Shown one piece after another: positions 1,888-62,524 of a stretch of 64,000 nucleotides of DNA. Both the position numbers and the translations under genes were made by a program. Location: contig ML769439.1 in the NCBI GenBank assembly GCA_009733575.1, forward strand, positions 219,527 through 283,526, written 5' to 3'. The notes beneath the pieces were generated by a model that saw only the letters and a list, made by a program, of their open reading frames with translations, did not search any database and was not told the DNA's origin. The stretch is from Gymnopus androsaceus JB14 (Eukaryota; Basidiomycota; Agaricomycetes; Agaricales; Omphalotaceae). Position 1 is the first letter of the stretch. Each line of letters starts with the position of its first letter.

Positions 1888-4800
1888 ATGGCCGATACCA
1901 AGAAGAAGGATGGTGGGCTTAAAGCATTTTACCGGAAAGTCTCTGCCTTTAGCATCGAGGACATCTTTTCACAAAAAAGACCCCCTGGTCCTCCTCGTAT
2001 CGTCTTTGTCAACGAGAATCTACCTGGAGATTATTTGGATGCTAAGGCTAAAGTAAAGAAACAGCATGTCTATACCAGCAACCAGGTTATTTCGTCCAAA
2101 TATACCCTTATTACATTTATTCCGAGGAATTTGTTGGAACAGTTTAGGAGAGTTGCGAATATGTGAGTTGGTATTATATTTTTCCATACTTACCGGTGTT
2201 CATCGTTCGGTGCAGCTACTTCCTCGGTCTCTCCATCCTGCAGTTCTTCTCTACATTCGCTACAATCTCCCCTGGAGTGGTGATTCTCCCGCTAATCATC
2301 ATCATCGCTCTCACTGCACTCAAAGACGGCTACGAAGACTTTCGTAGACACCAGTCTGATAGACGAGTCAATCAGAGCGAGGTGGAGGTTCTTGCTGGGA
2401 GTAACTGGACGAATCCTAATATGACAAAGCGGAAGAGTAAAACGTTTGTGAGGGGATTGGTACCAAAGATGGGGTCTCGAAAACCCAAGCCCGTCACTCC
2501 TGCTCCTCCTGTAGATCCTGAAACCACGCTGACGGCTCCGCCCGTACATCACCGCAGACGGAGTAGTAATCGACTTTCGTTCATCAAGCAGGTTGATGAC
2601 GACGACGCCTACTGGAAATCCACTCTTTGGGAAGACGTTCGCGTCGGTGATTTCGTCCGAATAACCGACAACCGTCCCATCCCAGCTGATGTCCTCATCT
2701 GCGCCACCTCCGACCCCGAGAATGTCGCGTACGTGGAAACCATGAATCTCGATGGCGAAACCAACCTCAAGTCACGTAATGCTGTTCCGGGTTTAACTCA
2801 TCTATCATCTCCAGAAGCATGTACCAACAGTGCCAATTCATTCCAAGTGCACTGCGACAGACCCGAGAACAACATGTACAGGCTTAACGCAATGGTCGAG
2901 ATGGGCGGCGAAAAAGACAAGAAAAAGATTCCTGTCGATTTGCAGACTGTGTTGCTGAGAGGGACGGTTTTGAAGAATACGGATTGGGTTATTGGCGTTG
3001 TGTTGTTCACTGGACAGGATACCAAGATCGTTATGAACTCCGGCGGGACGCCAAGTAAACGGAGTCGGGTGGAGAGGCAAATGAATCCGCAGGTGTAAGT
3101 CGCTTGCTCGTGTTTTCTAGTTTTCTTATTGATATTTTTCCCTGCGTAGACTGATCAATCTAGCGCTAATTGCAATCATGGCTGTGGTTTGTGCTATCGT
3201 CGATTCTGTGCTTGAGAAGCAATATTTCCCTCTTGGTGCTCCGTGGCTGTACGACGACAACCTTCCTGGTTATAATCCGCAAGCAGACGGTGGTATTACT
3301 TTTGCGTTTGCGTTGCTCACGTACGTCTCCCTGACCCTTTCCTTTTCTTGGACCTAACTGAATTAATTCATTAAACCCTTTAGATTCCAGGATCTTGTCC
3401 CAATCTCGCTCTACCTCTCTATCGAGGTCGTCCGCACGATCCAAGCGATATTCATATACTTTGACAAGGACATTGCATATGATAAGAGCCGGACAACCAG
3501 CACAAGCTACTCAAGCGAGAAGCTGGAACTTGTCAGATGATTTGGGACAGATTGAGTATATCTTTTCGGACAAGACTGGAACGCTGACTCAGGTGTGTAT
3601 GATATCCTTGCTTGTTAGTGGTTAGAGGAGCCTATAGGGCGAGCTCGAGCACATTTATGCCATTTGCTTCGACCCTCCCTTCCATATCATCACAACCGAT
3701 CTAATATTAAATCTCCTAGAATTCCATGGTATTCCGACAATGTTCTGTTGGAGGTAAAGCATATCGTGGAGACCCGGAGGTACTCACAGATGGCGAAGAC
3801 GAGACCAACAAGAACTCGGATTCCATCGAGCTGGAGAAGGAAATACTGCATGAACACATCGCCAGACCCACCCCACCACAATCAGGATACTCCACAGACG
3901 CCAACTCGTCCCAAGGACTAACCCCATTTTCTTCCACACCTCGCACCAAGACGAATAACCCTCGCTTTAAAGATGCTGTTCTCACCTCCGATATCACCGC
4001 TGCCTGCACCGAGTCCGACGATCCCGCTTTATCATCTTCTCGTACTCGCGCCCGTGCCCGTCGCCCTCAACGGCTTCTTTACCGTCTTGGGTCTTTGTCA
4101 CACTGCTCTCGCCTCCGTAGACCCACTTACCGGTGTAATAGAGTACAAAGCTCAATCCCCAGACGAGGCGGCGCTCGTACAAGCTGCAGCGGATGTGGGG
4201 TATGTGTTTCTCGGTAGAGATAAGGAGATTTTATCGCTCCATACTCCGGCTTCGGTGGTGTCTGGGAACGAACGCGAGGGAGGGGGAGAGATGACTCCGG
4301 CACCGGTTCCAGAGCGATATGAACTCTTGCACATATTGGAGTTTTCAAGTGCGAGAAAGAGGATGAGTGTGATTGTGCGTAAACTGGATGAGGAGGGAGA
4401 AGAACAGGGAGGTGCAGGGAGGATATTTTTATTAAGTAAAGGGGCGGATAATGTGATTTTCGAGAGGTTGAAGACAGGCGGGAGCAGCGAGGAGGCGTTG
4501 AGGGATGAGACGGAGAGGCACTTGAGTGAGTTTGCGAATGAGGGTTTGAGGACGCTGACGTTAGCGTATAAGATTATTTCTGGCATGTTGTCTTCCTCGA
4601 CTTTCTCTTTGTTTTCCTGATTTATTCTTTTTCCAGAGGACGAATACCAGTCATGGAGTCACCGATACCACGAAGCCTCCGTCGCTTTAGACAACCGTGA
4701 AGAAATGATAGAGACGGTCTCCGAACGAGATTGAAAAGGATCTGAGGCTACTTGGGGCTACTGCCATTGAAGATCGGCTGCAGGATGGTGTACCGGAGGC

Positions 4801-7084
4801 CATAGCCGATCTCAAGCGCGCTGGAATTAAGATCTGGGTAGCGACCGGTGATAAGCTCGAGACTGCCATTGGTAAGTTTATCTCCCATGCCACGGTATTT
4901 TATTCTAAATCTCTCTATTCTCCACAAACAGCCATCGGACGCAGCACCAACCTAATTGGCCCCGAATCGAACATTATCGTCGTCCGCGGCAGCTCCAAAC
5001 CTGTCGCTCAGCAGATTAATAATGCTTTGGACAGGTTCTTCCCTGAACATAACTTGGAGGGAAAGCAAAAACCTCCTTCTCGCCCGTCAACGCCATCGAG
5101 GATGTATCCTTTGACTCGTGCCGATACGAATGTATCGTCTATCGTCGGTGGAGACAACGGAGACAGACCGGGCGGATTTGTGCTTGTGGTTGATGGTGCT
5201 GCTTTGTTACATGTACGTATATATTTTTTGCCTTCTCAATGTTTCTCTCATGTAGCATACGTCTTTCTAGGCATTCGAAAGCGACGAAAACAAGGCGCTT
5301 TTACTAAAGTTGGGTACTCTCTGCGAAGGAGTCATCTGCTGTCGAGTGTCTCCGTTACAAAAAGCCCTTGTTGTCCGATTAGTGAAAGACGGTTTAAAGG
5401 CGATGACGTTGGCTATCGGAGATGGTGCGAACGATGTCAGCATGATTCAGGCTGCAGATGTCGGAGTTGGAATCTCTGGTGAAGAGGGGCTTCAAGCAGT
5501 CAACTCGTCCGACTATGCCATTGCGCAGGTGCGTTTACCGTGGGTTTTGGCTTTGTGATTGTTCGTGCTTATTTTTCGTGCAGTTCCGATTCTTGAAGAA
5601 ACTGCTTCTGGTTCACGGACATTGGTCGTACGCTCGGAATGGAACCATGTCAGTCTTTTGCCGATGGAAGTTTGAATGTATAAACTGATGTTTTGTAGGA
5701 TCCTGAACTTTTTCTACAAGAACGCTGTACCCACTGGGATCTTATGGTGGTTCCAAATCTACTGTGCGTGGAGTGCCACCTTGTGAGTCTTTCTTGTGAG
5801 TCTGAAGTTGGTGATGGTGTGTTGACGATTCTTTCGCAGTGCAATGGACTACAGCTATATCCTCTTTTGGAACTCCTTATGGACTATTGCTCCCGTCGTG
5901 GGACTCGGTCTGTTCGATAGAATTCTTGGTGAGTTCTTGGTTGTTTTTTGAAAAAAGAAAAACAGTTGTGCTGACAAACTTTAGACTCCGAGACTCTCAT
6001 GGATCTCCCGGAGCTCTATCACTATGGCCGTGAAAAGTACTGGTTTGCATGGCGGGATTTCTTCATCTATATTCTCGATGGGATTTACCAAGTAAGTTGG
6101 TTGGACTTTTTCTTTGCTCGTTGTGCTTACGCGTCTTTTCAGTCTGTCATTATATATTTCTTTATCATGTTCACCTACGAGACTACTTCTGCCCGTCATG
6201 ATGGATACAGCGTTGATTTATACGAGTGGTCTACGGTCCGTTGTCTTGATCTGGTATCAATCACACTGCTTACTGTCGATATTATAGGTTACTGCTGTAT
6301 CTGGTGTCCTCGTTGTGGATATATTCACCGGAATGTGCGCATCTGCATGGACTTGGTGGCTCGTGTTCTTTGTTTTCATCGGTATCGTCGTAGTTTGGGC
6401 CTTTACAGTAAGAGCGAGCTTTTTTTGTACGAGGATTCTTTACTCATCCTTTTTCTCGATAGTTCATTTACTCTGCATTATCACCTGCCTTCGAGTTCAC
6501 AAACTTATATGGCTTTTACTACTTCCTTGGAGCATCTTCCTACTTTTGGTTCGGATTGGTAATCACCTTCATCCTTGCCCTTGCTCCACGTTACCTTGCC
6601 AAGGCCTACAAAGCAAGCTTCCGTCCCGACGACATAGATATTGTTCGAAGGATCAAGAAGGATAACCCTTACTTTGACTTCAAGCACTACGATCATCAGT
6701 CCAATGTCGGAATCGGTCTTACCGAGATGAAGCAGCGTCGACGGACTTCCCGCGTTGACAGTGAACATGTGTCTCGACGCTCGCGCTCATCAACTAGCAG
6801 TGTCGCTTACGCTGGACCCGCCAGGAGACAGGCCCCGCCCTTCCATGGACCTCCGATCAGCGAGCAGAACAGACATGTCGACAGGCCTCGTTTCCGTCGA
6901 CCGGGGCTTCGACTTTGCTGCAGAGGATGACGGCGTGGCTATCAGGAGAATCCAGACAAATTTGTCGGAGCGATTTAGCAGTCGGAATCTCGTTCCTGAT
7001 GGGGGGGATGGCAAGAAAGGAAAACGATCAAGGTTTCTTTCGCTGAAGCGAGGACTTACGAAGAAGAATCGACAAAATGAGTAG
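1888..7084 (+). CDS. P4-type ATPase, phospholipid flippase (DNF1/2-like), reading frame broken four times
   Basis: Identity is clear from the P4-ATPase signatures in order: N-terminal [15 protein letters not shown] then [11 protein letters not shown] (membrane), DGETNLK (actuator domain), SDKTGTLTQ (phosphorylated Asp), [44 protein letters not shown], and the C-terminal membrane block with YHYGRE. P4-ATPases move phospholipids to the cytosolic leaflet, normally with a Cdc50 partner. Exons: 1888-2162, 2216-3094, 3150-3320, 3384-3592, 3720-4582, 4637-4871, 4932-5212, 5271-5528, 5584-5648, 5699-5782, 5840-5928, 5985-6091, 6143-6235, 6288-6407, 6463-7084. Introns are GT-AG except 4583-4636, which needs a GC donor. 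In four exons the conserved protein continues only if one extra base is ignored: about 3484-3520, 3990-4060, 4723 and 6810-6845. Either the copy is a young pseudogene or the assembly carries insertion errors. Length and layout are otherwise complete. Confidence 0.93.
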
Positions 7085-7690
7085 GTTTTAAGCACTCGTT
7101 ATCTATTTATTAATTATTTCTCTTGCCTAAACCACTTATCTGGAGGATTCGCATGATCTAGTTATATGACCCACATCTATCGGCATGTTACGTTTGCATA
7201 TATTGTTTCGTCCTTGTTTCCTGTTCTACATAGTGTATCCATTGATCTGTATCCATCCAGTCCTCTTCCTAGTACATTGCTACACCCTCTCCGTTGTCTT
7301 TGCTATATTTCCCCCAAAGCCACATTCGTTTCATTAATTCCTTGGTCTTCATGATTATTAATTAGTAGCACGCCAGTGGTCCTGAGTGATAAAGTCACTT
7401 CCCTGTGTCCTATCCCGACTCTCAAACGAAGTGCAGAGAAAGGGCCTTGTCTGCTGCGATCGAGCTTCCCACACTCGAAAAGGCCGCATTTAGTTAATCG
7501 GTCTTCTTATCTTGTAAATTTATAAGCAGAATCTGTCATTTCCTCTGACTGTCCCCCTATATATGGCTTATCTTGACGGGTCAGCGGACCGGACAGTCAT
7601 ACACTTTCTGTCATCTGTGTCGCAGTTCAACGGCTGGCCTCTTGTTGTTTACCACTTCTGACCCACAGCCGCTGTTATTGACCATTATCG
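7085..7690. other. Intergenic, no gene seen
   Basis: The 3' flank of the flippase and the 5' flank of the next gene. TATATATGG-like and other AT-rich words occur near 7555-7565, but no promoter element can be assigned. Confidence 0.3.
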
Positions 7691-60263: not shown

Positions 60264-60850
60264 TTATATATATTCAACCCCATCAAGGGGTTGCAGATTA
60301 CATACAGAGTCCAATAAATACAAAGTAGGAGCACTAAAATCATATGGTGTATTTATAGGTCCATCAACAGATGGCCTTGAGATAGTGTGCATCATATAAT
60401 TGTAGGAGTTCTGTTTACAGATCCGATGCAATATTTTAGTGAATTTTTTCTTAATGGTAGAAAAGGAAGGAACTTGCCAGAAAATCAATTGCTCTTCACT
60501 GGTTCCAGAATTTTCACCCTTGTAGACATCCATGTAGGAGTCAACAAGTCCTCCAAGATCAATCTCCACATCCTCAACCTTCATGTTGGCAAGGAGGGGA
60601 TCAAAATCTCCAGTGTAGGGGTTGTGAGATTTAACCAGAGGAGAAGAAACCTTGGTACCATTGGTGATAACAGGAGCCATTGCAACGTAAGCTGCAGCAA
60701 AAGTGGTGACAGGATTTTCCACGGTTGCCTTATGAGCCTGAGCCTTGCCTTTGCCTTTGCCACCATGCCTGAATTTCTTCTTCTTGTTATTATTTCCATT
60801 GGAATTACCAGATTGGGGAGAAGTACTGGTTTGCAGCCCTTTGGGTACTC
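60264..60850 (-). pseudogene. Copia gag, C-terminal part
   Basis: Lys/Gly-rich KFRHGGKGKGKAQAHKATVE, followed by AAAYVAMAPVITNGTKVSS and a long open frame that ends at 60264. It is the continuation of the gag frame on the other side of the solo LTR. The usual CCHC knuckle is not intact here. Confidence 0.65.
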
Positions 60851-61214
60851 CTGTTATGACCTATACCATTTGCTATTAAACTTTATCAACACTACTTACC
60901 ACAAATTCACTCTTTCACTAGTATTAAACCGCATATAATCACTATCTGCTCACATAAGATTGTAATACTGATATTCTGTATTAGTACATACATTCCCTCA
61001 CTATCCTTAGTCTATATTTCACACATCCACACACACTTACTGCGCATATATGCATAAATTCTCACACTTACTGTGCATTTACACTGCATATAAGCACAAA
61101 TTCCCATACTTACTGTGGATTCCACAGCTTCTATACATTTATTATATATACCTATTCAATTTATGCAGTTGATGCGCAGTTCCGCAGTGATACTGCGCAT
61201 TCCGCAGCTTTTCC

Positions 61215-61230
61215 TTTAGTATATAAGTAG
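61215..61230 (+). promoter_or_regulatory. TATA-type promoter of the 873-bp LTR
   Basis: TTTAGTATATAAGTAG, identical in the 453-bp LTR. It is followed about 100 nt downstream by the hairpin array. Confidence 0.65.
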
Positions 61231-61328
61231 CCAAGATTCACCATGTATGGTAGACGTATTATTTTTTGAATCCAAACTGCCCTTTGTGCTAAACACCCCT
61301 TGTGTGTGCTTCAAGACCACTTTTGGTG

Positions 61329-61590
61329 TATTCTGTTGAGCTATCTCCAGATACACTTCCACCCTATATAGATTGTTGAGCTATCTCTGATCTATATATT
61401 TATTCACCTGTTGAGCTATCTCCTTGTGAATACTTACTATTATTTGTTGAGACATCTCTGAGTATTAGTTACAAGCCTTATTACCTATTGTTGAGCTATC
61501 TCCAAATAGTAGTTAAAACCTTTGCTGCCTATTGTTGAGCCATCTCCAAAGGTAGTACTTATCATTGTTTGTTGAGACATCTCCAAACAA
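61329..61590 (+). repeat. Array of seven hairpins with a constant loop core and covarying stems
   Basis: Seven units with the core GTTGAG-NNAT-CTC(C/T) (cores at about 61334, 61374, 61410, 61445, 61490, 61533, 61570). Inside the core GAG pairs with CTC around CTAT, ACAT or CCAT. Outside it each unit has its own complementary arms: TGTATTCTG/CAGATACA; TATATAGATTG/TGATCTATATA; TATTCAC/GTGAATA; ACTATTATTTG/TGAGTATTAGT; TACCTATTG/CAAATAGTA; CTGCCTATTG/CAAAGGTAG; ATTGTTTG/CAAACAAT. Stems differ in sequence but keep pairing, often with G-U pairs or single bulges. This is read directly from the sequence; function is unknown. Confidence 0.85.
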
Positions 61591-61734
61591 TACATTCTGT
61601 GAGTTCCATATTAATTAATTCTGTTACTAACAATTCTACTTGAGCCTAGTTGTTTGAGTATATATTTCTTGCCTAGCGGTTATTAACAGTCCAAGGCTTG
61701 TCTTAAGTTTCCTATTTTTATTATTAACATGTTA

Positions 61735-62524
61735 TTAGGTTTGGAGGAGATTCAAGTTGAGTCATAACAACTCCCTGGTCATCCTTCTTCTTCTTTTGGT
61801 TATTCCAAGAAGATCCATCAGCAGGAGGACATTTCTTCACAGTGGAAAGACGGGATTGAAGAGAAATGGTGGTGGATTGGTGGTGTCTGAATTCATCCTG
61901 GATGGTGGGAATAATAGCTTCCATTGTCAAACTTTTTGCATCATATTGAGACAAAATTGACATGGCAAGACCATCCATGGATCAGGGTAAAGAGGCAAGC
62001 AAGATCATGGACTGAATGGATTGAGTGAGAACCAATCCGGAATCAGTAAGGCGTGAGAAAATCGATTGGAGGGAAGAAATTGGCATAGCTGGATCAATTC
62101 CTTCAGCCATTTTGAACATGATGGCCTCTTTAAAGATGCCAAACATGCCTGTGGCACCGGGACTTCCATAAGTATCTTTGAGATGGGTCCAAGTCTCAGC
62201 AGCAGTTGCTTTAACAGCAGTATTGCAGATGTGATCCGGGAGACGCAAAGCAATGGCAATGGCAGAATCATTATTGTCATCCCAGGTTGCTATCTTCTCA
62301 GTGATGTCAGCAGGTGATGTGTCAATCACCTGGTTAGTGGAATAAGTTCCCGCTTGGACTTCAGCTGCTGTAGCAATGCGTGAGGTATGGAGAGGACGAG
62401 GGTATCATCCGTTGATGTATCCAATGAGTTTCTGCAGGCATAGATAGGCAATCATGCTGGTAGACCATGTGCTATAGTTGGTACCATCCAAATAAGGAAT
62501 AACAGTGATGGCGGAGGAAGACAT
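61735..62524 (-). pseudogene. Copia gag, N-terminal part
   Basis: Starts MSSSAITVIPYLDGTNYSTW (copia gag N-terminal 'L.G.NY..W' motif) and continues with DNNDSAIAIALRLPDHI, AAETWTHLKDTYGS, FKEAIMFKMAEGIDP and LSQYDAKSLTMEAIIPTI. In-frame stops near 62405 and 61979 and the LTR insertion at 61734 break it. Gag would form the virus-like particle of the retrotransposon. Confidence 0.85.

Follow-up and report, generated by a model that had tools for sequence, protein, structure and literature searches.

Self-priming has been described for Tf1-type Ty3/gypsy retrotransposons (passages in PMC4600332 and PMC7175516). The element examined here resembles Tf1 and Tf2 of Schizosaccharomyces, the Tf1/sushi group, Tj1 and Tcn1 in having a PBS complementary to the RNA 5' end, which in this case is predicted, with 12 complementary bases compared with 11 in Tf1. 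As in the Tf1/Tf2 group, a Tf2-type SH3 domain and a chromodomain follow its integrase. Tf1 is said to carry a U5-IR-like stem-loop (Lin and Levin 1998). In the passages on Tf1 no array of repeated units was found, whereas such an array is the feature of the present element.

The stem-loops of retroviral and Ty1/Ty3 leaders are distinct from one another. The present leader differs from these in that a single tip recurs on seven to eight different stems, while sharing with them the same place, the presence of hairpins and a zinc-knuckle Gag, here as candidate reader. Leader hairpins and zinc-knuckle Gag are discussed for retroviral packaging signals and the structured RNA 5' ends of Ty1 and Ty3 in passages of PMC4974528 and PMC11381356. 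For Ty3 packaging, the cis-acting sequences 'are not precisely defined', as the latter puts it in the passage concerned.

The array lies in a solo LTR of Gymnopus androsaceus JB14, within a window of 64,000 nucleotides (the whole stretch of DNA that was analysed). The initial annotation gave the LTR a length of 873 bp; its ends and the target-site duplication ACTCC instead give 918 bp (60852-61769). A minus-strand copia-type gag adjoins it (Retrotran_gag_2, E 1.6e-10, 61985-62404), so the LTR is probably a nested insertion. No match was obtained for the frame on the opposite flank (60267-60848). U3 contains, upstream of the TATA box, a 42-bp direct repeat whose copies are 81% alike (window 61034-61117). 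A 482-aa frame elsewhere in the window finds its best named matches in Gymnopus and Lentinula, in keeping with an agaric host. The genome (83.3 Mb, 934 contigs) was searched for copies, yielding 49 matches to the LTR query (915 bp, 60855-61769) and 29 to the array query. Of the latter, 24 were aligned and five short fragments left out. The features of the window copy are collected in Table 1.

Table 1. Features of the solo LTR and its hairpin array (window coordinates)
Feature	Position	Strand	Basis
Target-site duplication ACTCC, left copy	60847..60851	no strand	sequence reading
Solo LTR (TGTTATGAC...GTCATAACA), 918 bp	60852..61769	+	ends and flanking duplication read in sequence
TATA box TATATAAG	61220..61227	+	sequence; same motif or one base off in other copies and in the sister L090
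Predicted RNA 5' end and self-primer AGACGTATTATT	61252..61263	+	exact complement of PBS AATAATACGTCT in C99 and C184
Hairpin 1 (GTGTATTCTG / CAGATACAC, one bulge)	61326..61356	+	fold and arm pairing
Hairpin 2 (TATATAGATTG / TGATCTATATA)	61365..61398	+	fold, arm pairing, model R1 matches
Hairpin 3 (TATTCACCTG / CTTGTGAATA, two mismatches)	61401..61432	+	fold, arm pairing, model R1
Hairpin 4 (ACTATTATTTG / TGAGTATTAGT, one U-U mismatch)	61436..61469	+	arm pairing, model R1
Hairpin 5, a chimera joining the left arm of family hairpin 5 to the right arm of family hairpin 6	61479..61514	+	copy alignment, arm pairing
Hairpin 6 (family hairpin 7; bulged A)	61523..61557	+	fold and arm pairing
Hairpin 7 (family hairpin 8; ATTGTTTG / CAAACAAT)	61564..61591	+	fold, arm pairing, model R1
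Leader remainder (U5 side) to LTR end	61592..61769	+	in copies with an internal region the PBS would come next
Only ATG of the window leader (12-codon open frame, TAA just before LTR end)	61729..61767	+	
Target-site duplication ACTCC, right copy	61770..61774	no strand	sequence reading

While the window holds a solo LTR, the copy in C99 encodes RVT_1, RT_RNaseH, Integrase_H2C2 and rve (the last below the cut-off) in Ty3 order, preceded by Retrotrans_gag with a zinc knuckle. Its coding sequence is split over several frames, and separate pieces after the integrase match a chromodomain (PF00385, E 7.7e-9) and SH3_Tf2-1 (E 4.1e-19). Domain order, chromodomain and PBS, all read from sequence, would place the element in Ty3/gypsy among the self-primed chromoviruses (Tf1/sushi group). 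In the same copy the gag start is separated from the Retrotrans_gag domain by ~2.5 kb of broken coding sequence (L069 1149-3698), of which the pieces 1536-2648 and 2609-3193 matched no Pfam family. A further copy with LTRs on both sides (L071, C184:125000-131500) has an internal region of 4.49 kb compared with 7.85 kb in C99, and lacks C99 internal 4351 to 7629, the part holding RT and integrase. The two LTRs differ at 21 of 659 aligned bases in L071 and at 12 of 773 in C99.

The initial annotation placed the array in the R-U5 leader, and this position is borne out by the match between self-primer and PBS, by which the RNA is predicted to start at 61252, ahead of the array. TATA spacing predicts the same start, the distance from the first base of the TATA box to that of the self-primer being 32 bp. 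In C99 and C184 the LTR end is followed by ...CATAACA-T-AATAATACGTCT, with the PBS one base past the end, and variants of this sequence occur in C429 and C179. Within copies, primer and PBS pair at 12/12 bases in C429 and at 11/12 in C99, C184 and C179. In C429 both sequences differ from those of the other copies, yet pair completely. Such a match appears to be the signature of Tf1-type self-priming. The post-LTR sequence T-AATAATACGTCT does not begin with TGG, the one feature by which tRNA priming was judged. Where copies vary in the self-primer, the change is often from CG to CA or TG, which decay linked to CpG methylation would produce. The array would occupy the leader before gag, the position of a retroviral-type packaging signal.

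Two sister families were compared. The family in C146 (L090), found via its gag start (49% identity over 62 residues, E 1.5e-4), has the same TATA/primer/PBS layout as the array family, with TATATAAG, the self-primer AGATCAGTTATT and the PBS AATAACTGATCT, which lies one base past the likely LTR end and is complementary at 12/12 bases. Its leader, however, has no hairpin array and is CT-rich instead. This leader (L090 385-817) folds far better than shuffles (z -5.45), and by reading of the fold this strength may come mainly from the primer:PBS duplex and an adjoining stem. The sister in C46 (RT 74% identical) showed no recognisable LTR or array in the 2.5 kb downstream of RT, where a chromodomain-like piece was seen by eye.

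The seven GTTGAG-NY-ATCTC cores described initially are all present as exact copies of GTTGAGNNATCTC, from 61335-61347 through 61571-61583, all inside the solo LTR and with no other exact copy in the window. With up to two mismatches the pattern has 26 matches (7 with none, 19 with one or two), and shuffles average 22. The complementary arms claimed for each core likewise pair in all seven hairpins. Hairpin 4 forms in a fold of 519 nt, while its left arm pairs elsewhere in a fold of 300 nt; the chimeric hairpin 5 is also present in the longer fold and absent from the shorter. Family hairpins 5 and 7 have a bulge at the same position. The initial annotation further proposed that GAG pairs with CTC around NNAT. 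The inner pairing is divided between two competing folds, one of GAG/CUC around N-Y-A-U and the other of GA/UC around G-N-Y-A with a UU/UC internal loop. In the energy model the GA/UC fold has a probability of ~0.8 in four of the eight C184 hairpins (1, 3, 5 and 7). For hairpins 2, 6 and 8 it gives the two folds nearly equal weight, and in hairpin 4 GAG/CUC is preferred. The G-N-Y-A reading would centre the variable bases in the loop.

A comparison of the fold with shuffled sequence had been proposed initially, and the array passes it: RNA of 61321-61620 folds to -66.8 kcal/mol against -52.1 (sd 4.4) for shuffles, none of 200 being as good. The 519-nt leader of the window folds modestly better than shuffles (z -1.69; 6/100 as good), and the eight-hairpin copy in C184, over 632 nt reaching into gag, has a z of -4.73 (20 shuffles only). 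Re-pairing of left and right arms was more discriminating than these folds for the family's eight reference hairpins, with arms in the forms common among aligned copies (the first right-arm A of hairpin 8 is G in 14/22 copies, and hairpin 6 is split about evenly). Here none of the 40,320 orders beats the native one (sum -73.1; permutation mean -32.8). For the seven hairpins of the window, three of 5,040 orders, native included, are at least as good; the fusion that forms its fifth hairpin makes this set the weaker one.

Changes among the copies bear on whether pairing is maintained. Across the 24 copies 162 hairpins were assigned and seven set aside as chimeric or degraded, with six more chimeric hairpins dropped later. 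Stem changes common to at least two insertions kept pairing in 11/12 cases, compared with 10/37 private changes, which show no pairing bias (one-sided Fisher p 1.1e-4). Dropping the six chimeric hairpins removed one shared pair-breaking change (hairpin 4 of L057 and L062), which adjoins a newly formed pair; with it the count is 11/13. That shared changes keep pairing and private ones mostly do not fits selection in an active lineage followed by neutral decay after insertion. Stem arms mutating without compensation, named initially as evidence against selected structure, do occur as private mutations in individual copies that are probably dead, but are scarcely seen among changes shared between insertions. 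Before the chimeric hairpins were dropped, distinct one-sided changes gave G-U 15 times and A-C 17 times. Of six distinct two-sided changes, four leave the pair intact.

Between copies, covariation is real but small. On 20 of the 24 aligned arrays (the window's L039, L040, L041 and L061 left out), three pairs have two-sided changes against 0.7 expected (5/500 shuffles as high), and paired cells reach 97.8% against 97.5% when shuffled (2/500 as high). Pair types between copies show no excess over shuffles in these 20 arrays (266/500 as high). Between hairpin kinds, 91.4% of cells are paired against 77.3% when shuffled and 42-53% when slid, in a set of 20 unbulged hairpins of five kinds hand-picked, well-paired first, from 86 distinct windows. 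In this set neither two-sided changes (39/500) nor pair types (81/500) stand out. The duplicated halves of the array (hairpins 5-6 and 7-8) differ at 7/19 pairs, all still paired and two changed on both sides; the three outermost pairs of hairpin 6 are without an equivalent in hairpin 8. Arm permutations, pairing between kinds, shared stem changes and two-sided changes thus agree in favour of the selection on structure proposed initially.

The tip is conserved differently from the stems. UUGAG-N-Y-AUCUC is nearly invariant, with shared variants at 1/70 fixed core sites, and elsewhere at 7/126 stem sites, 9/71 spacer or bulge sites, 19/169 sites after the array and 115/364 U3 sites. Single-copy variants per site amount to 0.07 in the core, 0.28 in stems and 0.27 after the array, so that the rate in stems is no lower than after the array. 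The two variable loop bases are N followed by a pyrimidine in 162/162 hairpins.

All eight cores, some mismatched, are found in 11/24 copies, or 13 if L054 and L057 with damaged cores are counted. Eight hairpins are thus the commonest form among aligned copies, and the window copy is a seven-hairpin subtype. Its fusion of hairpins 5 and 6 is common to L039 (the window), L040 and L041; the seven-hairpin form has therefore spread, and none of the units is indispensable on its own. In further arrays different deletions have left six or seven hairpins, and some arrays are truncated. The model R1, applied to five sequences, detected arrays in the window, L076 and L077 and nothing in L089 and L090; one of its 24 hits is antisense, inside an array.

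The best explanation is an array, specific to this family, that would serve as a multivalent docking site for a protein, most likely Gag during packaging; we give this about an even chance. The prediction is that seven units, or eight in the commonest form, fold within the R-U5 leader of this Ty3/gypsy element's RNA, and we infer that the hairpins form in the cell. A near-fixed 12-base tip would thereby be offered many times over to a binding protein, with the stems as sequence-free props holding it. Its leader position and zinc-knuckle Gag make Gag the first candidate reader, and packaging or dimerisation would be the purpose. Tandem duplication probably enlarged the array, and the number of units (six to eight seen) would change through deletion from one identical core to another. 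Counting against this explanation are the small covariation between copies, the absence of a pairing bias among private changes, the sister's self-priming layout without an array, the C99 fold with its mispaired hairpins and the insertions with seven hairpins. The more specific proposal of a multivalent packaging code, in which seven or eight interchangeable docking hairpins inside the self-priming loop are read by Gag through avidity, is put forward tentatively. The main rival to Gag as reader is a host RNA-binding protein on the tips that would control how the element's RNA is translated, exported, stabilised or localised. Many RNA-protein recognition elements look like this, with a fixed tip repeated on stems that vary. 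The leader is also poor in ATGs, with one in the 519-nt window leader compared with 9.9 expected from shuffles, none in C99, two in C184 and none in the sister leader, which fits scanning through a 5' UTR. However, no particular host protein is indicated, and the covariance models of Rfam 15 gave no match in 60700-61900 even at E 1, leaving a host factor the unlikelier reader.

It may instead be that the hairpins are an architectural spacer, merely shortening the leader so that the 5' self-primer reaches the PBS. The array does lie between the two, and the unconstrained minimum-energy fold of the C184 leader closes a primer:PBS duplex around all eight hairpins. The C99 leader pairs part of its primer with gag-side bases in its minimum-energy fold (-125.9) and forms primer:PBS only when forced, which costs 4.6 kcal/mol (-121.3); hairpins 5 and 6 mispair in this prediction. 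Shuffling the array alone, however, leaves the predicted primer:PBS pairing unchanged (0.862 native, mean 0.860, 9/40 at least as high), and the sister leader closes without any array. The array is thus not needed for self-priming as such. A spacer would also make the near-invariant tip unnecessary; that tip, with interchangeable stems and eight repeats, is better explained by docking sites, and we consider a spacer rather improbable. Still less probable is an array of no function, in which template-switch 'correction' of imperfect palindromes in replication or reverse transcription produced complementary arms without selection, even though tandem duplication and core-to-core deletions are evident among the arrays. 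Such a process should give perfect palindromes, or G-U and A-C in equal number, while G-U pairs number nine in the eight reference stems and A-C pairs are absent; it also conflicts with the bulge position shared by hairpins 5 and 7 and leaves the near-invariant tip unexplained. The least probable reading is a DNA-level element of cruciforms or protein sites in the LTR promoter. The array as single-stranded DNA (z -3.24) and, less strongly, its minus-strand RNA (z -2.34; 5/200 as good) do fold better than shuffles. However, the array is downstream of the predicted start, and the reference hairpins fold to -73.1 kcal/mol as given against -57.5 for their complement. Together with G-U pairs in the absence of A-C, this greater plus-strand stability points to the RNA of the element.

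Outside the genome, a pattern of two neighbouring cores was found in three viral and eight prokaryote records. Arms at their 27 cores pair at 1 to 8 of 11 positions (bulges disallowed), so these are regarded as unrelated repeats or chance occurrences. Among the open-licence papers listed by the searches, no title or abstract start describes comparable tandem hairpins in the leader of an LTR element. The self-priming and chromovirus frame is therefore known, while the leader array is a module of which we did not find a description.

How the Gag of LTR retrotransposons selects its own RNA is poorly defined. The eight natural replicates of the tip, the variants with six, seven and eight units and the array-less sister make this choice directly testable. 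The sister's independent primer/PBS pair supports self-priming in this fungal lineage. If the proposed packaging code is true, the array would act in packaging or dimerisation as a signal repeated in tandem, and the number of units could set how strong it is, a design that the searches of open-licence papers did not find described for any LTR element.
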